DNA of 43,991 nt from Erysipelotrichaceae bacterium (lineage in GTDB: Bacteria; Bacillota_I; Bacilli_A; Erysipelotrichales; Erysipelotrichaceae): contig JARKSP010000074.1 in assembly GCA_029974225.1 (NCBI GenBank), positions 1 through 43,991 on the forward strand. The letters are read 5' to 3'. Shown here one piece after another: positions 14,379-43,991 of this stretch. Numbering within the stretch: the stretch's first letter is position 1; each line of letters starts with the position of its first letter. A program made the position numbers and the translations under genes. The notes under the pieces were generated by a model. That model did no database searches. It was not told the DNA's origin and was given only the letters and a program-made list of their open reading frames with translations.

Positions 14379-15161
14379 TTAATACAGACCCCACTCAGCC
14401 AGCTTTTCAAAGCCGCCAAGACTATCAATGTATTTCTTTGCAATCCTGACAATCTCACTATACGGTTTACCATCAACCCTTTCATCTCCGATGGCACAGC
14501 TAAGCTGGATAGTCTGGCCGGTCTTCTGGGCTTTTAAAAAAGCATAGATATTTATCGAGACATCACCTTTGGACAGATCTTTGCCATGGAGCCCGCCTCC
14601 AGTGACGCTATCGGCCATATCACTGCCCAGCTTACGATTGGTAGCTCCCGTATCCACATCTGTACCTCCGGTCCACTCACCCAGAGGATTGATTATCGCC
14701 TGTGGATACAACTGTCTTAACTCTTTATCAGCGGCATTACTCTGACAGATAATCAGCTTTTCTTTATCCAGGATGTATTTTCCGTCACTCTGATAGCGCT
14801 GATAAATATCACGGGCTATTCTGGATAATCTTTTCTGTTCTTCCGTTAAAGGTACTCCTTTAAATATTCCGTTGTCACCACATCTCAGCCGGTCTTTCTG
14901 ATTGGCAGCCAGATACATATCCTGTTTAACCACTGTCTGGTCAACCTCTACTGCACCGGCAATCCTTTTAACAATACCTTCCACTTCAGCAGCACTGAAA
15001 ACTTCACTGGTCTCCGCTATGATATGACATCTTCCATGTCCTATCAGAACCTCCACCGCTATCCTGCATTCACTGTTTTTTTCGTATGCCCGATCCACCA
15101 ATGCTCCGGCAATACGATCTGCCAGCTTGTCCGGATGGCTGGGATTCACTTTTTCAATCAT
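14379..15161 (-). CDS. Compact S-adenosylmethionine synthetase-like enzyme
   Basis: 260 residues against about 380-400 for canonical MetK, yet the catalytic motifs remain in order: HPDK (9-12) near the N-terminus, GDNG (canonical GDQG), PLGEWTGGTDVDTGATNRK (canonical P-x-G-x-F-x-x-GG-x-x-D-x-G-x-T-x-RK), and GGGLHGKDLSKGD (canonical GGGAFSGKDxxKVD). The customary N-terminal FTSESVxEG stretch and much of the C-terminal third are missing. Start ATG 15161 after AAGGAAG. The gene lies directly behind a SAM-I riboswitch and terminator, strong contextual support that it makes SAM from Met and ATP. Confidence 0.82.
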   Translation of the reverse strand: MIEKVNPSHPDKLADRIAGALVDRAYEKNSECRIAVEVLIGHGRCHIIAETSEVFSAAEVEGIVKRIAGAVEVDQTVVKQDMYLAANQKDRLRCGDNGIFKGVPLTEEQKRLSRIARDIYQRYQSDGKYILDKEKLIICQSNAADKELRQLYPQAIINPLGEWTGGTDVDTGATNRKLGSDMADSVTGGGLHGKDLSKGDVSINIYAFLKAQKTGQTIQLSCAIGDERVDGKPYSEIVRIAKKYIDSLGGFEKLAEWGLY

Positions 15162-19569: not shown

Positions 19570-21921
19570 TTAACCCTTTATCATCCTGATAATACCTTTA
19601 ATAAAGTGACCGTTAGCCATTTCTACCAATCCTTTGAAGACTCCTCCTTTAATACCGCCGCTTATCTGCATTGATCTTAAAGGTGCTCCGGCACTGGAAT
19701 TCATCAGCATTACGAAATCAGGATTATCGTAATCGATTTTACCATCAAAACCTTTAGAAATAACCTTCTCAACCGCCTTGTACATTATCTTCATTATCCA
19801 GGAATGATCTTTCATTTCCATAACAGAATTGTCCATTGTAAACTGTCCCTTGATCAGTCTGGTAGGCTCGTACTTTATTTTCAGCATTGTCTGCCATTCT
19901 GCTTGAGTAACATCACCTTTACAGGTTTCATACCAGCTGCCGTTCTGCCAGTCTGGAACAGCAGCTTCTTTTCCATCAACATCAATGTCCCTAAAGAAAC
20001 AGATATCTCTGCTTGATGTTCCGATTTCTAGACGATAGCTGCCTTTAACCTTTTTAAACGCCCCATCCCAAACGGCAAAATCATCATCTGTCAGTTCAAA
20101 TACAACTTCTTTCGCTTCGGCAGGCTTTAGATTTACCTTCTCAAAATGTTTAAGTTCTCTTAGAGGTCGATGTAATTCAGGATTGTTCTGTCCAACATAA
20201 AGCTGTACTACCTCACTACCGGCATATTTGCCGGTATTGGTGACTTTTACTTTTACTCTTCTTTCATCCGCTTCAAAATCCTCAAGTTTAAAACTGGTAT
20301 AGCTTAAACCATAGCCATAAGGCCATCTGACGTCTATCTCAGCTTTATCATAATAGCGATAGCCAACATAGATACCTTCTAAATATAGGGCATCTCTGCT
20401 CTTGGCATAATAAGAGGATGAAATAACATCACTGTAATTATATGGCCAGCTTTCCGACAGTTTTCCAGATGGGTTTGCCTTACCAAACAGTAAATTGTGG
20501 ATTGCCCTTCCTGTTCCCTGACCCGGTAGGCCCAGATATAGAACTGCCTGAGCATCATCTGCCCAAGGGCATTCTACTGCACTGCCACACAAAAGTACTA
20601 CCACAGTATTCTTATTGGCTTTGACAGCTGTTTTAATCATCTCAATGTGCCCCTGCGGCATTTTCATATGTTCTCTATCAAAGCCCTCTGATTCAAACCT
20701 GCTTGGCAGACCGGCAAAAACAACCACAGCTTCCGCTTCCGCTGCCTTGCTATGCAATTGTGAAAGTAACTCCTCAGTTGTATTGCCATCAGTGTCACAA
20801 CCTAAAGCGTACTGATAAGCACCCAGATAATCAATCGGATGCTCGAGGTTTGTCGGGTTGACATGGCTGCTGCCGGAACCCTGATAGCGGACATCTTTAG
20901 CCATATCACCAACAATCAGAATCTTCATATCTTCTTTTAAAGGCAGGATACCATCTTCATTTTTAAGCAGGACAGCTGATTCTTCAGCGATTTTAACAGC
21001 CAGTCGGTGGTTCTTCTGATAATCGGCCTTATATTCCTTTTCAAATAGTTCTTTGGCTTTAAAAACAATTTTCAATATTCTTTCACAGCACCTGTCGATA
21101 TATTCTTCAGCCAACTCGCCTTTTCTGACAGCTTCCATTACATCTTTTTCCATATAATCGCTGCCTCCTGGCATCATTAAATCATTTCCGGCAATAAAAG
21201 CCTTGATTCTATCATTCATTCCCCCCCAGTCTGTCACTACTAAGCCATTGAAGCCCCACTCTTCTCTTAAGATATCATTTAACAGCTTCTTATTATCACT
21301 ACAATAAACACCATTGATTTTGTTATAGGCACTCATAACAGTGGCTGGATCAGCTGTTTTTACCACAATTTCAAAAGCTTTAAGATATATTTCTCTTAAT
21401 GTTCTTTCATCGATAACGCTATCTGAAAGTAAACGATTCTTTTCCTGTGAATTGCAGGCAAAGTGTTTTACTGAACAGCTGATTCCCTGTGACTGCAGAC
21501 CCCTGACAAACTCAGCTGCCAGTAGACCTGTCTGAACTGGATCTTCACTAAAATATTCAAAGTTTCTGCCACAGAGCGGGTTTCTTTTAATATTGACTCC
21601 TGGACCCAGTACCATTGCCACTTTCTGATCAAGAGCCTCCTCGCCGATAGCCTTCCCCATCTTATACAGCAGCTCTTTATCCCAGCTGTTAGCAGTCGAT
21701 ACCGCTGACGGGAAACAGGTTGCCGGAAGCGAATCATTGATGCCCAGCATATCAGTGCCACTTCCCAATTCCTGCTTTCTAAGCCCGGCCGGGCCATCAC
21801 ACATAAAGAAGGAAGGAATGTCATGTTTCTTGAAGTCTCTGGTTTCCCAGAAAGACTTGCCAACACATAACTGGATTTTCTCCCGTAAGGTCATTTTCGC
21901 CACTATTTCTTTTATTTTCAT
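19570..21921 (-). CDS. GH3 family glycosidase (beta-glucosidase-like), cytoplasmic
   Basis: 783 residues from ATG 21921 (AAAGGA upstream; an upstream in-frame ATG lacks a site). Order: GH3 N-terminal barrel with VKHFACNSQEKNR and VVTDWGGMND, whose Asp is the nucleophile; GH3 C-terminal sandwich with GSGSSHVNP and GFDREHMKMP; a fibronectin-III-like domain (YVGQNNPELHRPLRELKHFEKV); and a C-terminal extension of about 120 residues. No signal peptide. Expected to release beta-linked glucose or a related sugar from imported glycosides after rhamnose removal; the exact substrate is inferred from the locus. Confidence 0.9.
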   Translation of the reverse strand: MKIKEIVAKMTLREKIQLCVGKSFWETRDFKKHDIPSFFMCDGPAGLRKQELGSGTDMLGINDSLPATCFPSAVSTANSWDKELLYKMGKAIGEEALDQKVAMVLGPGVNIKRNPLCGRNFEYFSEDPVQTGLLAAEFVRGLQSQGISCSVKHFACNSQEKNRLLSDSVIDERTLREIYLKAFEIVVKTADPATVMSAYNKINGVYCSDNKKLLNDILREEWGFNGLVVTDWGGMNDRIKAFIAGNDLMMPGGSDYMEKDVMEAVRKGELAEEYIDRCCERILKIVFKAKELFEKEYKADYQKNHRLAVKIAEESAVLLKNEDGILPLKEDMKILIVGDMAKDVRYQGSGSSHVNPTNLEHPIDYLGAYQYALGCDTDGNTTEELLSQLHSKAAEAEAVVVFAGLPSRFESEGFDREHMKMPQGHIEMIKTAVKANKNTVVVLLCGSAVECPWADDAQAVLYLGLPGQGTGRAIHNLLFGKANPSGKLSESWPYNYSDVISSSYYAKSRDALYLEGIYVGYRYYDKAEIDVRWPYGYGLSYTSFKLEDFEADERRVKVKVTNTGKYAGSEVVQLYVGQNNPELHRPLRELKHFEKVNLKPAEAKEVVFELTDDDFAVWDGAFKKVKGSYRLEIGTSSRDICFFRDIDVDGKEAAVPDWQNGSWYETCKGDVTQAEWQTMLKIKYEPTRLIKGQFTMDNSVMEMKDHSWIMKIMYKAVEKVISKGFDGKIDYDNPDFVMLMNSSAGAPLRSMQISGGIKGGVFKGLVEMANGHFIKGIIRMIKG

Positions 21922-21955
21922 AATATTTATCCTTTCTTCAAATATTAATATTTGC

Positions 21956-24514
21956 TTATTCATTATAAATTTTAAGTCCCGGCTGCTGATTGTATGTTTT
22001 TCCCGAAGGAAGAATTACTTCGGCAGTGCAGTTAGCCGGTATATCAATAATATATTCATATCCGCCGGCAGTTTTCTGCCAGCCTGATTTTATCAGACCA
22101 TAGATACTCTGATATTGAGCATTAGCATATTTAAAACTGCCGCCTGGTACCGGTCTGATCACAAAGTGATTTTCATAAGAAACATTAATCCCGCACATAA
22201 CCTCAAATAGCCAGCTGCAGAGAGCTCCTTTAGAATAATGGTTTAAAGAACACAGACCGGCATTGGAGTTGGCATTACCTTCCCAGGCTTCCCAGATAGT
22301 AGTAGCTCCATGCTTTGGCATTGCCAGCCAGCCTGGCAGCTCTTCATTCTCTAACAGTCGATAAGCATATTCCTTATCTATTCTTTCCAGCACATACAGG
22401 ATAAGCGGTGTTGACAAAAATCCTGTCCCCAGTCTCCAGCCATAATTATCCAGGGCTAAAATGAGTCTTTTTTCTGCATATTCTTTCTGCTTCTCATTTA
22501 ACAGGTCAAAGTAAAGCGGTCTGACAATTCGAGCCTGACGGTCAGTATCCAAAGTATACCTTGGGCACTTTTCTCTTAATGCCTGATATGACTTCCGACA
22601 CTTTTCGCTAAAGCTTTTATAAGTTTTCGCTTCTTTTTCATTGCCTAATGCCATCTCAATTTCATTCATCAGGTCCATTATATAGATAGTATAAGCGGTG
22701 GCTGTTTCAGGATGAGTAATTAAAAAATCTCGCCAGTGCATCTTATGCACATCTTCCGGTTCAGCCCATTCACCATAGTGCTGACCGGCGTTGTTCAGAT
22801 ATTTCTTATCTGCTTTATCAAGCTCTAATCTCATAGCCAGCAGGGAAAACCTGCCACATCGGTTGCAAATGAAATCCGCATATTTTCTCATACCGGCAAG
22901 ATATCTTTTTAAAATATCCCGATCATTGTATTTCTTATAAAGAATATAGGGCATGATTATTCCCGCATCAGCCCAGCCACTTGAACCGTTCATCGTATAC
23001 ATATAGAAGTCTGCTCCGCCATCCGGAACTATATGAGGCAGACAGCCATCTTTTCTCTGCCAGCAGTACATATCCCTAATGAATTTTTCCGCAAATGTCC
23101 GATAATCAAACAGGTAGGAAGCGGTGTTGCAGAAAATCTGAGCATCGCCAGTCCAGCCATGTCTTTCTCTGGTTGGACAGTCCGTAGGAAGGTCATTGCT
23201 GTTTCCCTTTGTGCTCCAGATGGTGGCTTCAAAGAACTGATTCAGCAGTCTGTTGGAACTGTCAAACCAGCCTGTCTGTTCCATGTCGCTGTAAACAGCA
23301 ATCGCAGTAAAGTCGGATGTATCGAAATCTATTTCCGTTTCTACCAGTACATATTGAAAACCAAAAATTGCAAATCTGGTCTTATATTCATTTAACCCTT
23401 CCTGACAGACGTATTTAATTTCCTGCAGAGGGGTTGTTTTTCTTTTTGTTTTCAGCTGAATGTTTCTTTGCGTAAACTCGCCAGCAAAATCCAGCATCTC
23501 GCCAAAACGCAGATATAATGTCTGTCCGGCTTTGGCCTTAATCTTAAAACTGATATAACCAGCCATATTCTGAGCAAAATCTAAAACCTTCTTACCTTTG
23601 GGAGTGATAATCAGTCTAGGCTTAAAATGTTCATGCTCTTTTACCAAAACATTATTAGCAGCTGCCGGAATAACATTATGCCTTGTTTCCCTGGCAAAGC
23701 CACTGTAGGAAGGAAACCTGTTGGCATCGACAATCTCCCCATCCTTATTATCGGCAAAACAGATACTGCCATCGTTAGACCATTGCCAGCTGCCATCAGT
23801 AATAACAGTTTCTTTTACACCATTATTATACTCCATCACCAGCTGGGCTAACACCTTTGTTTCCTGGCCATACTGATTCCTTAACCCCCATGAACCAACC
23901 GAACCACGATACCAGCCATCTGCCAGCAGCACTTCTATAAGATTCTGCCCCGCTTTCAGATAGGAAGTAACATCATAAGTCTGATAGTGCATCTTTTTGC
24001 GGTAATCGGTGATACCGGGAGTCATTACTGCAGTTCCAACCTTTTGACCGTTTATGGCAGCCTCATAAAGCCCGCAGGCAGTAATATACAGCCTGGCCTT
24101 TTTTATCTCTGCACAGTAAAAATGTTTTCTGAAACAGTCAACCGGATAGCGTTTTTTCTTATTGACTCGGTAATTGCCGGTTATCCATTTAGCTGGCCAT
24201 TCTTCATTTTCCGGTAAACCGGTTTCAAAATAGGCCTCGGCATACTCGGAAGCATTATCATTTTCATCGAATATTCTGACTCTCCAGTTTACCCTGGTAC
24301 ACCAGTCTACCGCTTTTTCTTTCCAGCGGTAATTCATTGAGGAGCTGTACACTTTGCCCGTGTCAACAAGCAGATTGCCATATTCATCCCGGGCAGTCAG
24401 CTGATAGGCACTCTGTCTGATGCATCCTTCAACATTCCAGAAAAGACGTGGAGCAGTAATACTGATACCAACAGGGTTGTTCAGATATTCGGTTTTAAGT
24501 CTTACTGCCTTCAC
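21956..24514 (-). CDS. GH78 alpha-L-rhamnosidase, cytoplasmic
   Basis: 852 residues beginning with GTG 24514 (GAGGAG upstream). Layout of GH78: N-terminal beta domains (FRKHFYCAEIKKARLYITACGLYEAAINGQKVG, a jelly-roll block), the (alpha/alpha)6 barrel with TDCPTRERHGWTGDAQIF, whose Asp/Glu/Asp cluster matches the catalytic acids of the family, then ATTIWEAWEGN and a C-terminal beta domain. No signal peptide, so it acts inside the cell on imported rhamnosides. It cleaves terminal alpha-L-rhamnose, feeding RhaA and RhaB encoded downstream. Confidence 0.95.
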   Translation of the reverse strand: MKAVRLKTEYLNNPVGISITAPRLFWNVEGCIRQSAYQLTARDEYGNLLVDTGKVYSSSMNYRWKEKAVDWCTRVNWRVRIFDENDNASEYAEAYFETGLPENEEWPAKWITGNYRVNKKKRYPVDCFRKHFYCAEIKKARLYITACGLYEAAINGQKVGTAVMTPGITDYRKKMHYQTYDVTSYLKAGQNLIEVLLADGWYRGSVGSWGLRNQYGQETKVLAQLVMEYNNGVKETVITDGSWQWSNDGSICFADNKDGEIVDANRFPSYSGFARETRHNVIPAAANNVLVKEHEHFKPRLIITPKGKKVLDFAQNMAGYISFKIKAKAGQTLYLRFGEMLDFAGEFTQRNIQLKTKRKTTPLQEIKYVCQEGLNEYKTRFAIFGFQYVLVETEIDFDTSDFTAIAVYSDMEQTGWFDSSNRLLNQFFEATIWSTKGNSNDLPTDCPTRERHGWTGDAQIFCNTASYLFDYRTFAEKFIRDMYCWQRKDGCLPHIVPDGGADFYMYTMNGSSGWADAGIIMPYILYKKYNDRDILKRYLAGMRKYADFICNRCGRFSLLAMRLELDKADKKYLNNAGQHYGEWAEPEDVHKMHWRDFLITHPETATAYTIYIMDLMNEIEMALGNEKEAKTYKSFSEKCRKSYQALREKCPRYTLDTDRQARIVRPLYFDLLNEKQKEYAEKRLILALDNYGWRLGTGFLSTPLILYVLERIDKEYAYRLLENEELPGWLAMPKHGATTIWEAWEGNANSNAGLCSLNHYSKGALCSWLFEVMCGINVSYENHFVIRPVPGGSFKYANAQYQSIYGLIKSGWQKTAGGYEYIIDIPANCTAEVILPSGKTYNQQPGLKIYNE

Positions 24515-39800: not shown

Positions 39801-40277
39801 ATGAGAAAACCAAATATTTTACTAACAAGGATTGACAACAGACTTGTTCACGGTCAGGTAGGGGTAGCTTGGATAAATTCACTTGGTGCAAACTTAATAA
39901 TTGTTGCTGATGATGAGGCTGCCAATGATCCGGTTCAGCAGTCTGTCATGTCTATTACAGCTGACATTGCTAGAGTTGGAATACGGTTTTTCACTATTGA
40001 AAAAACTATTGAAACTGTCTGGAAAGCTAGTCCGAAACAATTAATATTCCTGGTTGTAAGAAATCCTCAAAGTGCAAGAAGACTTGTTGACGGCGGAGTT
40101 CCGCTTGATAAAATCAATGTCGCAAACATGCACTTTGAAGAAGGAAAGACCGCTCATCCAGGATCACCTTATGTATACGTTGATGATAAGGACTTAGAGG
40201 ATTTTGAAGCAATGAAAGCAAAAGGGGTATCTTTGTTCATTCAGATTTTGCCGGGTGATAAAATCTACAATATGTAA
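39801..40277 (+). CDS. Mannose/fructose/sorbose-family PTS IIB
   Basis: 158 residues from ATG 39801 (AAGGGGG upstream; the longer frame runs into the promoter). The phospho-His loop RIDNRLVHGQVGVAW is at about 9-23 with His at 16, the hallmark of mannose-family IIB. It carries phosphate from IIA to the sugar. First gene of an operon with IIC and IID; no IIA gene follows in this window. Confidence 0.93.
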   Translation: MRKPNILLTRIDNRLVHGQVGVAWINSLGANLIIVADDEAANDPVQQSVMSITADIARVGIRFFTIEKTIETVWKASPKQLIFLVVRNPQSARRLVDGGVPLDKINVANMHFEEGKTAHPGSPYVYVDDKDLEDFEAMKAKGVSLFIQILPGDKIYNM

Positions 40278-40293: not shown

Positions 40294-41067
40294 GTGGAAA
40301 TAACCTTGGTTCAAGGCTTATTGTTGTCTTTAATTGCATTTATATGTAGTTTAGACCAGCAAGCAGAAGTATTTTTAATTTTTAGACCAATTGTAGTATG
40401 TTTCTTTTCGGGAATAGTTTTAGGAGACATGCCATTGGGACTATCTGCAGGAGCAGTAGCTGAACTTGCTTATTTGGGTCTGCTTACGATTGGTGGTACC
40501 GTTCCGCCTAACCCACTTATTGCCGGTATCATGACTGTTGTAATCGCTCATACCAGCGGTGTGTCTGCAGAAGCAGCATTAGGTTTATCGTTACCTTTTG
40601 CTTTATTAGGGCAATGGATTGGTATGATTCTAAGTACTGTATATTCAGGATTGATGCCTATAGCTGATAGATATTGTGCTGAAGCAGATGTATCGGCACT
40701 AGGCAGATTAGTTATTATTTCAGCAATTGGTAAATCTTTAGTAACTGCAGTAATCATATTCTTGTCAGCATACTTAATGCAGGCACCGATCACTGCACTG
40801 GTTGAAACGTTCCCAGTATGGCTGATTCGTGGATTCAGAGTTGCTGGAAACCTGTTGCCAGGTGTCGGGTTGGCATTGCTGCTTAAAGTTATGCTGAAGA
40901 TTGACAATATTGCATATTTATTCATTGGCTTCTTAATTGCAACATATATACCAATGGGTAACGTATTGCCAATAGCAATTTTAGCTGTTTGTATCACATT
41001 CTTAAGTTTTATTAACAGCAGAGACAGAAAAGCTTATGATGGAGGTGTTGACGATGACGGTATCTAG
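40294..41067 (+). CDS. Mannose-family PTS IIC
   Basis: 257-residue membrane protein of the EII-sorbose IIC family, about seven hydrophobic segments; LIFRPIVVCFFSGIVLGDMPLGLSAGAVAELAYLGLLTIGGTVPPNP is characteristic. Start is GTG 40294 after AGGAGGTG. Its last 14 nt overlap the IID start. The final stretch (from 41005) is duplicated in inverted orientation at 42805-43073. With IID it forms the membrane channel. Confidence 0.93.
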   Translation: MEITLVQGLLLSLIAFICSLDQQAEVFLIFRPIVVCFFSGIVLGDMPLGLSAGAVAELAYLGLLTIGGTVPPNPLIAGIMTVVIAHTSGVSAEAALGLSLPFALLGQWIGMILSTVYSGLMPIADRYCAEADVSALGRLVIISAIGKSLVTAVIIFLSAYLMQAPITALVETFPVWLIRGFRVAGNLLPGVGLALLLKVMLKIDNIAYLFIGFLIATYIPMGNVLPIAILAVCITFLSFINSRDRKAYDGGVDDDGI

Positions 41068-41273
41068 AAATAAATTAACTAAAAAAGACATTACAAACAT
41101 GGGCTGGCTTTCAATGCTTTTACAGTTTGGATTTAACTATGAAAGAATGCAGGCTATGGGATTCTGTTACACAATGGCTCCTTATTTCAAGAAAATCTAT
41201 GGAGACAATAAAGAAGAGATTGCAGCTGCCATGACAGATAATATCGACTTCTTTAACACAGAAATGCACATGG
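41005..41273 (+). repeat. 269-bp inverted repeat, intact copy (IIC end/IID start)
   Basis: The segment from the last 21 codons of IIC into the first 73 codons of IID recurs, inverted, at 42805-43073. I count 7 mismatches in 269 nt and no gap. This copy keeps both reading frames open and is the original. Confidence 0.92.
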
Positions 41274-41845
41274 CAACCTTCTTAAACGGATTAGTTTTAT
41301 CTTTAGAAGAAGCAGGCGAAGATAGAGAATTAATCAGAAATATCAAGAACGGTTTATTCGGCCCTCTGGCTGGTCTGGGTGATGCTATATTCTGGTTTAC
41401 ACTCTTGCCAATATCAGCAGCTATCGCAGTTTCACTGAATAGACAAGGCTCAGTTCTTGGACCAATTGTATTCATGGTTATCCACTTCTTTGGTGCAGTA
41501 TCAAGAATACCTCTGGGACATCTGGGATACAATTTAGGTACAAATGCTATTGAGCTAATTCGTGAAAATGCTGCAACTATTACCAAAGCCGCTGGTGTAC
41601 TTGGTGTTATGGTTGTTGGAGCACTTATCCCATCTTACATTGATTTCTCATTCCCAGAAACCTTTGTAATATTTGATGTTGTTCCAGTTCAAGGAATTTT
41701 CGATACAGTTTTACCTAATATATTACCTTTAGGATTTGTATTATTCCTGTACTATTTAGTAACTAAAAAGAATGTTAATGCTGTACACTTAATCTTTGGC
41801 ATTATAGTTGTATCAATCATACTCGCATTCTTAGGAATCATGTAA
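41054..41845 (+). CDS. Mannose-family PTS IID
   Basis: 263 residues from ATG 41054 (GGAGGTG upstream, inside the IIC gene). EIID signature: SMLLQFGFNYERMQAMGFCYTMAP (about 19-42), FFNTEMHMATFLNGLVLSLEE and NGLFGPLAGLGDAIFWFTLLPI; one or two C-terminal helices. Partner of IIC in sugar uptake. A hairpin follows the stop, beyond which lies the truncated IS. The N-terminal coding part exists a second time, decayed, at 42805-43021. Confidence 0.93.
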   Translation: MTVSRNKLTKKDITNMGWLSMLLQFGFNYERMQAMGFCYTMAPYFKKIYGDNKEEIAAAMTDNIDFFNTEMHMATFLNGLVLSLEEAGEDRELIRNIKNGLFGPLAGLGDAIFWFTLLPISAAIAVSLNRQGSVLGPIVFMVIHFFGAVSRIPLGHLGYNLGTNAIELIRENAATITKAAGVLGVMVVGALIPSYIDFSFPETFVIFDVVPVQGIFDTVLPNILPLGFVLFLYYLVTKKNVNAVHLIFGIIVVSIILAFLGIM

Positions 41846-41852
41846 AAAACTA

Positions 41853-41878
41853 AAATCACTTGTTAATTCAAGTGATTT
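41853..41878 (+). terminator. Hairpin ending the mannose-family PTS operon
   Basis: Perfect 10-bp stem AAATCACTTG/CAAGTGATTT with a 6-nt loop just after the IID stop; no T-run follows. A second hairpin, AAACAGAC/GTCTGTTT around an A/T core (41891-41919) followed by TTCTTTTT, may finish the job; it lies inside the 3' end of the transposase fragment. Confidence 0.6.
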
Positions 41879-42807
41879 CAGATTGTTGACAAACAGACTT
41901 TTTTAAAAAAGGTCTGTTTTCTTTTTACCTTAAAATCAGGGATTGTTGGTATTTTTAGATAAAAAAACAAAGAAAGGGACTGATTATTGTCCCTCCAATG
42001 GTCCAGTAATGCCATCTTTTTCATGTTATGGCATGAGAAAATCATCAGCGCCTGATGCTGATTCTTTCTGAGTCCCTTTAATCGGGTAAACCTCAGACCA
42101 TGATTTTCCTTATTGTCCGCAAACACTCTTTCGATTGTCTGCTTTCTTTTCGGATATATCTGTCTCCAAAGTTCACTTTTCCTGAAGAGGTTGGCCTGTT
42201 CTCTATGGTTTTCCCAAATGTGTCTGGCTACTACTTTTCTATCTGATTTAGTGCACCTGTCTTTAAATGGGCAGCCTGCACAGCTTTCACAGGCTCTGTA
42301 CTGCCTGTATCCTTCTTTTGAAGTTGTACTATATTTCAATACGCATTCCATCGGACAGATATAGATGTTTTCCTGTTCATCATAGATATATTCATATTTT
42401 TTAAAGTATCCCTTTTTAGTCATCGGTCTGTGATATGGCACTATGACTTTTTGATTGTTGTCGATTATTGTCTTGCATATTGCCGAGCTGTTGTATCCGG
42501 CATCTAAACATATATTCTTAATTTTATCTTTATATTTTTCACTCAGCACATTGTAGGCTTCGAAGAAGCTTACTGAATCATGTATGTTTCCAGGCACAGC
42601 TGCGGTTGTCAGCACAAAGACGTTACCGTCACAGAACGTCTGATGACTGTAGGCGAACATCTGTTCTCTTTCACCTTTATGATACAGACCGCTTTCCGGA
42701 TCTGTCTTTGATTCCTTGATATTCTTTTTCTCTATCACCTCGACTTCCTGACCGTTTTCATCAAAGATTGTCTCTGTTCTGGCCAGACTTTCAAATTCTT
42801 TTTTCCA
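41878..42807 (-). mobile_element. 5'-truncated IS1182-family transposase
   Basis: An open frame of 309 codons reads from the repeat junction (WKKEFESLARTETIFDENG) to TGA at 41878. It holds the middle and C-terminal parts of an IS1182-type DDE transposase: ESKTDPESGLYHKGEREQMFAYSHQTFCDGNVFV, NICLDAGYNSSAICK (second acidic residue), the Cys cluster CRACESCAGCPFKDRCT, and QTIERVFADNKENHGLRFTRLKGL (catalytic Glu). Full-length members have about 450-550 residues; the N-terminal part, including the first Asp, is gone, replaced by the inverted IIC/IID copy. I could not identify terminal inverted repeats. Not autonomous. Confidence 0.85.
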
Positions 42808-43073
42808 TGTGCATTTCTGTGTTAAAGAAGTCGATATTATCTGTCATGGCAGCTGCAATCTCTTTTTTATTGTTTCCATATATTTTCTTGAAATAAGGAG
42901 CCATCGTGTAACAGAATCCCATAGCCTGCATTCTTTAATAGTTAAATCCTAACTGTAAAAGCATTGAAAGTCAGCCCATGTTTGTAATGTCTTTTTTAGT
43001 TAATTTATTTCTAGATACCGTCATCGTCAACACCTCCATCATAAGCTTTTCTGTCTCTGCTGTTAATAAAACT
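42805..43073 (-). repeat. 269-bp inverted repeat, decayed copy (IIC end/IID start)
   Basis: Minus-strand copy of 41005-41273. The seven changes include two nonsense mutations in the IID part (Trp TGG to TGA and Glu GAA to TAA), so this half-gene cannot make protein. One end joins the transposase fragment (shared TGG at 42805-42807), the other joins the 5' part of a small reading frame in-frame with the IIC tail. Confidence 0.92.
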
Positions 43074-43130
43074 AGCCAGTGAAAATAACATCAGGGTAAA
43101 AGAGATAATGATTAGATAAGTTTTTTTCAT
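43011..43130 (-). CDS. Chimeric 39-residue membrane peptide ending in the IIC tail
   Basis: ATG 43130 has a very good site, AAGGAGG 7 nt upstream. The product starts MKKTYLIIISFTLMLFSLA, one hydrophobic helix, then continues SFINSRDRKAYDGGVDDDGI, identical to the end of the PTS IIC protein, to TAG at 43011-43013. The join is at 43073, where the inverted repeat begins. Whether the first 19 codons come from a real gene whose 3' part was replaced, or from a chance frame, cannot be told. The ribosome binding site argues for translation. Confidence 0.45.
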   Translation of the reverse strand: MKKTYLIIISFTLMLFSLASFINSRDRKAYDGGVDDDGI

Positions 43131-43163: not shown

Positions 43164-43180
43164 CAATTTTATAAAAATTG
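43164..43180. promoter_or_regulatory. Palindrome between the chimeric ORF and the WYL-regulator remnant
   Basis: CAATTTT-ATA-AAAATTG, perfect 7-bp arms, centred in the divergent intergenic space. Possible operator; A/T-rich, so chance is not excluded. Confidence 0.35.
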
Positions 43181-43210
43181 GACTGTGACATAATGAATCT
43201 GGTGATTAAA

Positions 43211-43991
43211 ATGAGTAATAAAAAAAGAATAATGATGGTGTTGGAATACTTAAAAGAAAACACAAATTATGATAATGGAGCCAATGCGGAAACATTGATT
43301 TCTTATCTGAAAAACCAAGCTACAGATGTAGAAAGAAAGACTATCTACAATGATGTAAAACAGCTGGATGAGATGGGCTATTCAATCGGTAAAAATAAAG
43401 AAGGTTATTATTTTGATGATGAAATGTTTGAAGCCAGCGAGCTGAGGGTGCTTATTGACATGGTTAAGGCTATTACATTTTTAAGTGAAAAAACAAGTAA
43501 AGAAATTATAGATAAAATAACTGCTCTTACCAATAAATTTAATAGAGTTATCATCAATAGTGGTGACTATATTAAATAAGAAAACAGAGTATGCTGATCT
43601 TCTGGTCAATGTTGAAAAACTTTCAGAAGCCATCAATCAATAAAGAGCAATCAGATTCAGATATTATGATCTGGATGAAAAAAGAAAGAAGAAGTATCGT
43701 GGTCGAAATTATACCTACTATCCAATCAATATGCTGGTGGATGATGACAGGTATTATTTAATCGTTTATGGTGAAAAATATAAAAGTTTCAATAATTTCA
43801 GGTTAGACAAAATGGATTCAATTGAAATATTAGATAAAACCTATGATGGAATTGAATTTGATGTCAATGAATATATGAGACAGACCTTCGGCATGTTCAG
43901 CGGGGAAAAAATGTCGGTAAAACTGAAGTTTGACAAGAGGCTGTTTTCGGAAATTGACAGTCAGTTTGGCGAAGAGATGATTCTGACGGAA
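43211..43991 (+). pseudogene. HTH/WYL-domain transcriptional regulator, frameshifted and nonsense-mutated
   Basis: From ATG 43211 (GGTGAT upstream) the first 122 codons encode an N-terminal winged helix (MSNKKRIMMVLEYLKENTNY, ERKTIYNDVKQLDEMGYSIGKNKEGYYF) and a linker, ending at TAA 43577-43579. In the +1 frame the protein continues NKKTEYADLLVNVEKLSEAINQ, then a second stop TAA at 43641-43643, then RAIRFRYYDLDEKRKKKYRGRNYTYYPINMLVDDDRYYLIVYGE, a WYL domain, open to the window end. Two independent lesions make inactivation secure. It may once have controlled the PTS/SIS locus next door. Confidence 0.85.

Follow-up and report, generated by a model that had tools for sequence, protein, structure and literature searches.

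In E. coli, rearrangements have been described in which two inverted template switches took place at microhomologies of 3-30 bp (PMC3161906). Such MMBIR/template-switch scars contain an inverted copied segment, two novel joins with short microhomologies and an adjacent deletion; in the E. coli cases, the copied segments measured 5-43 kb and were caught arising under selection (PMC3161906). Among insertion sequences, IS1272, also of the IS1182 family, removes the hairpin at which it inserts (PMC4923244, PMC5678879), and duplication of the hairpin has been put forward as an alternative, pathway b (PMC5678879). Invertons are a third kind of structure, in which inverted repeats that serve as short recombinase sites surround a segment holding part of a gene. 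The locus that we describe here has features of each. Like the MMBIR/template-switch scars, it has the inverted segment, the two joins, the microhomologies and the deletion, but its patch is only ~270 nt long and its history must be read from an old, decayed scar. Like IS1272 and other IS1182-family insertions, it has an IS1182-family transposase and an element end set against a terminator hairpin; whereas IS1272 deletes or replaces the hairpin, the related element here seems to keep it and duplicate it on both sides. Like invertons, it has inverted repeats around part of a gene; unlike them, its arms are long stretches of homologous DNA, the proteins scanned include no invertase, one orientation is seen and one arm is decaying.

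The window, i.e. the whole stretch of DNA that was analysed (43,991 nt), corresponds to the whole of contig C84 in a draft genome of 120 contigs (95% complete), and the structure is known from this one draft genome. The window carries an IIB-IIC-IID operon of the mannose/sorbose PTS family, whose best named relatives are galactosamine transporters, with only IIB above the curated cut-off (Table 1). For IID, the ATG at 41054, which lies behind a GGAGG, is judged from its spacing to be a more likely start than the ATG at 41036. Elsewhere in the window, the sole domain of S-adenosylmethionine synthetase recognised in a 260-aa ORF (14382-15161) is the N-terminal one (E 3e-11).

The junction between IIC and IID is present twice, the second time inverted. 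A repeat search gave two arms of 272 nt that are 97% complementary and 1525 nt apart, and a base-by-base comparison found seven mismatches within 269 nt, an eighth at 41274/42804 and no gaps. The repeat of 41005-41273 at 42805-43073 that had been noticed from the sequence alone (seven mismatches, ungapped) is therefore real and extends a little further, to 272 nt with eight mismatches. The second-longest inverted pair in the surrounding 8 kb measures only 30 nt at 70%, and chance is thereby excluded. A search of the same genome with the arm sequence returned the two arms and one 70% paralogue only.

Between the arms lies the remnant of an IS1182-family element, as the sequence-only reading had proposed. 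An intact relative of its transposase, 88% identical, matches the IS1182-type DDE transposase model NF033551 (400.8 bits against a cut-off of 270, E 9e-120). The remnant is without the left ~0.74 kb of the element, and its transposase is without the N-terminal ~205 residues. Not part of the sequence-only reading is what lies on the other side of the copy, which is fused to the first 19 codons of a gene that we call X, near a broken WYL-type regulator. The fusion is in frame, with the 19 codons of X running into the 20 final codons of IIC (43011-43130), and is probably a functionless accident.

Table 1. Features of the inverted duplication, its surroundings and two related insertion loci in the sister genome (G001)
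Feature	Location	Strand	Basis
PTS IIB, mannose/sorbose/galactosamine family, intact	39801..40277	+	PF03830 E 5e-43; NF007288 galactosamine IIB above cut-off
PTS IIC, intact; last 63 nt are the start of the copied segment	40294..41067	+	PF03609 E 8e-59
Left arm: original IIC/IID junction that served as template	41005..41276	+	repeat search, base-by-base comparison
PTS IID, intact	41036..41845	+	PF03613 E 1.3e-87
Operon terminator stem-loop AAATCACTTGTTAATTCAAGTGATTT, abutted by IS right end	41852..41877	+	IS-free counterpart in relative L058
Right-hand IS1182-family remnant: transposase C-terminal ~290 residues and intact right end	41878..42804	-	88% identical to intact-frame G001 element
Join 2, copy/transposase: 11-bp microhomology GCACATGGCAA	42799..42809	-	alignment of IID, sister's transposase and chimera
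Right arm: decayed second IIC/IID junction, inverted, with 2 in-frame stops	42802..43073	-	repeat search, base-by-base comparison, polarisation, codon counts
Join 1, gene X/copy: AG(T/C)TTTATTAA common to IIC and relative's X	43063..43075	-	alignment
Gene X (membrane protein, no Pfam family), first 19 codons, in frame with copied IIC tail	43074..43130	-	intact X in relatives' contigs
WYL-domain regulator, disrupted by a frameshift near 43573 and an in-frame stop near 43641	43178..43852	+	aligned to intact C91 and G001 copies
Contig end, 100% identical to C91 start (C91:1-139)	43853..43991	+	contig alignment
G001 IS locus 1: palindrome GCAATGTGTAGACACATTGCC	C28 and C24 (L030:100-220, L141 end)		
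G001 IS locus 2: palindrome GCGCATCAGACGATGCGC	C19 and C22 (L031:100-220, L142 end)		

What did this locus look like before the duplication? The closest available genome, G001, was used as the sister, and L058 is the next relative. In both, the PTS operon is collinear with that of the window and is free of the IS and of the copy (in G001, on contig C11), and in L058 an identical terminator is undisturbed. In the window, too, the operon is intact, so the template is still in place. Within the DNA examined per locus, an inverted repeat of at least 80 bp was found at 0 of 80 related IID loci; the patch is absent from the relatives, none of which has the IS, the X fragment and the regulator in the order of the window. 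Comparison of related loci, which had been suggested as a way to the ancestral order, points to the present order as ancestral, with IID whole and the IS end against the operon terminator. The suggested hunt for an intact IS1182 copy likewise paid off: an element with its frame intact lies on contig C16 of the sister, and a search of the window's own genome for a further copy found this remnant alone. The IS, X and the WYL regulator are each intact elsewhere, all in the sister genome, and X and the regulator also on contig C91 of the same genome as the window. The gene found next after IID in the sister is on contig C9, which yielded no breakpoint.

The copy has aged differently from its template. 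When the seven mismatches were polarised with two relatives, five were derived in the copy, two could not be polarised and none was clearly derived in the original. The codon changes in the copy comprise two synonymous and five nonsynonymous ones, and two of the latter are the stops that had been called from the sequence and that we confirm: TGG to TGA at IID codon 24 and GAA to TAA at codon 36, numbered from ATG 41036. Over the same codons, IID differs from that of the sister by 15 synonymous and five nonsynonymous changes with no stops, and over the gene by 65 synonymous and 16 nonsynonymous codon differences. The copy is 97% identical to its own genome's IID versus 87.5% to the sister's; being closest to the IID of its own genome, it was made locally, after the split from G001. 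By these comparisons, the patch, which arose after that split, has drifted unselected, with the original conserved.

Both joins of the copy fall at microhomologies, delimited here with the sister's X and transposase in place of the parental sequences of the strain itself. At join 2, GCACATGGCAA is common to IID (41263-41273) and to the sister's IS transposase, and one C has since been lost from it in the window; the three sequences are GAAATGCACATGGCAACC in IID, GAAAAGCACATGGCAAAAAA in the relative's transposase and GAAATGCACATGGAAAAAAG in the chimera. At join 1, the match is 8 bp if exact and 11 bp with one mismatch, with AAGTTTTATTAACAGC in IIC, CTAGCTTTATTAATCA in the relative's X and CTAGTTTTATTAACAGC in the chimera. 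Among 400,000 random pairings of this DNA, matches of at least 8 bp arose at a frequency of 2.4e-4 and of at least 11 bp at 1e-5. The 8-11 bp and 11 bp joins point to microhomology-primed repair or template switching. The exact join sequence had no match among IMG/VR viral contigs.

We consider it about two-thirds probable that the copy is the scar of a microhomology-primed repair event, and that the copy has been under no selection, with the original genes left intact. What is expected of a templated insertion is found here: a nearby template (97% identical, 1.5 kb away), microhomology at both joins and a template that is retained. Comparison with the relatives supports a beginning in which an IS1182-family element would have inserted at the stem-loop of the PTS operon terminator. 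We infer the initiating lesion, the succession of template switches and the loss of DNA as follows. A break or stalled fork may have arisen in the left half of the element or just past it, and a free 3' end would then have paired through ~11 bp with nearby IIC/IID DNA on the opposite strand. After ~270 nt had been copied, a second microhomology switch would have taken the strand to the partner end, linking the interior of the transposase to the first codons of X through the inverted IIC/IID patch, and the left end of the IS (~0.74 kb) and the remainder of X would have been lost. The patch then decayed under no selection, acquiring the two stops and losing a base, with the original IID still intact.

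Could the same arrangement have come about in other ways? If the PTS-IS segment had first undergone a more extensive fold-back inverted duplication, trimmed to 270 nt by two microhomology deletions, the product would be collinear with the observed order of transposase, IID head and IIC tail, and the microhomologies at the two joins could equally be the ends of deletions; this route requires three events where a single one suffices, however, and the genome holds no other duplicated piece of the operon, only the two arms and the 70% paralogue, so that we regard it as unlikely. An abortive or one-ended IS1182 transposition is a natural thought, given that the element sits between the arms and at a stem-loop target. 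Against this, neither boundary of the copy coincides with an IS terminus, and join 2 is a microhomology within the transposase gene, ~0.74 kb short of the element's left end. Since the starting point of the copy lies within the transposase gene, away from the IS ends, involvement of the IS in the mechanism is improbable, and we give a transposase-made rearrangement very little credence. The original suggestion of a frozen scar of an IS-associated rearrangement is accordingly half right. The scar is supported by the IS remnant, the microhomology at both joins, the decay of the copy alone and its absence in relatives; the association with the IS holds for the place and probably not for the mechanism.

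The possibility also has to be weighed that the assembly or library joined unrelated pieces and that the inverted copy was never present in a cell. The genome is a 120-contig draft, the contig ends 918 bp past the copy at a fork, and the adjoining X and regulator are located elsewhere in the sister. At this fork, the final 139 bp match the beginning of C91, and the final 112 bp are also identical to the end of C78; inward of the 139 bp, identity drops abruptly to ~80%, so that 43853-43991 would mark either a fork in the assembly or genuine recombination between two copies of the regulator. Still, the fork is ~780 bp from the copy and leaves the joins untouched; the copy has derived mutations of its own (two stops, two missense), which a chimeric read would be without; and the assembler would not create these joins, because 8-11 bp is far shorter than the ~112-bp overlaps between contigs. 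An artefact is thus an improbable source. A contaminated bin as the origin of C84 is likewise disfavoured: over long stretches, identity to G001 is 79-83% for C84, comparable to the 74-79% of C78, and C84 looks same-species because of this resemblance. A different proposal, that of a reversible switch, takes the duplication as real: homologous recombination between the arms would flip the 1.5-kb interval and turn IID off or place it under another promoter. Arms of 270 nt at 97% identity suffice in principle for RecA-dependent recombination, and a promoter-like site, recognised by consensus match, lies upstream of the broken regulator. A Pfam scan of 37 proteins (4 + 30, plus relatives') found no site-specific invertase or recombinase, ORFs such as 19570-24514 lying outside the scan; every polarisable mutation is on one arm, with no sign of exchange; the 80 related loci have no inverted repeat of at least 80 bp within the DNA examined; and the assembled order is the ancestral one. 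The lack of changes in the left arm is itself weak evidence against exchange because the IID part of that arm is under selection. Taken together, the reversible off-switch that had been put forward finds no support, and we think a switch of this kind highly improbable. Its predicted outcome also holds only in part. For a crossover after 41141, the start of IID would join transposase DNA and the rest would lie behind the copy with its two stops, as envisaged. With a crossover in 41005-41106, ahead of the first stop, IID would instead stay unbroken, carried by the inverted segment behind the DNA upstream of X, and loss of IID is therefore not a general outcome. A still more remote idea is that the arms recombine at a low rate and that pre-stop crossovers put a complete IID under the X promoter, making the scar a rare promoter swap.

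The repair model covers the patch and leaves the position of X and the regulator beside the IS unaccounted for. Intact X is found on C91 of the same genome (174 aa) and on C12 of G001 (185 aa), in both cases divergently oriented to an intact regulator, and WYL (PF13280) is detected in the intact regulator copy. The broken regulator, a second copy in its genome, is 79% identical to the intact C91 copy and 82% to that of G001. Could X and the regulator have been brought from the present C91 copy during the patch event? This source was rejected, the regulator being ~20% diverged versus 2.6% for the patch. From its divergence, the broken regulator would be either an old paralogue, older than the patch, or foreign; the four regulator copies in the tree, including those of two congeners, are about equally distant from one another (79-83%).

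The insertion of the IS at a hairpin can be followed in the relatives. The right end of the element adjoins a clear hairpin in five of six copies and a weak one in the sixth. For two IS copies in G001, identical palindromes of 18-21 bp at both ends allow one contig to be paired with another, the pairing itself being deduced from the shared palindromes. At locus 1, two IS-free relatives (L152, L153) have the empty site, where one stem-loop with T residues after it lies between collinear flanks; at locus 2, the relatives' flanks are collinear and the palindrome is unrecognisable there. The sister's element thus seems to target hairpins and to leave them duplicated in full. In the window, the right-hand hairpin is the sole survivor.

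We therefore regard this locus as a scar that is real but of an ordinary kind: the evidence that its origin was microhomology-primed is good, and a switch has none in its favour. It is probably without effect on the PTS operon because the operon keeps its own terminator. Read as a scar, with its template, both joins and decay all legible, the locus offers a clear and dated case of microhomology-primed repair from an uncultured Erysipelotrichia lineage of the gut/digester type, and it cautions that a long inverted repeat need not mean a switch. The side result on hairpin duplication may outweigh the scar itself, as two complete hairpin copies are what the alternative pathway of Wan et al. for structure-directed transposition would leave.
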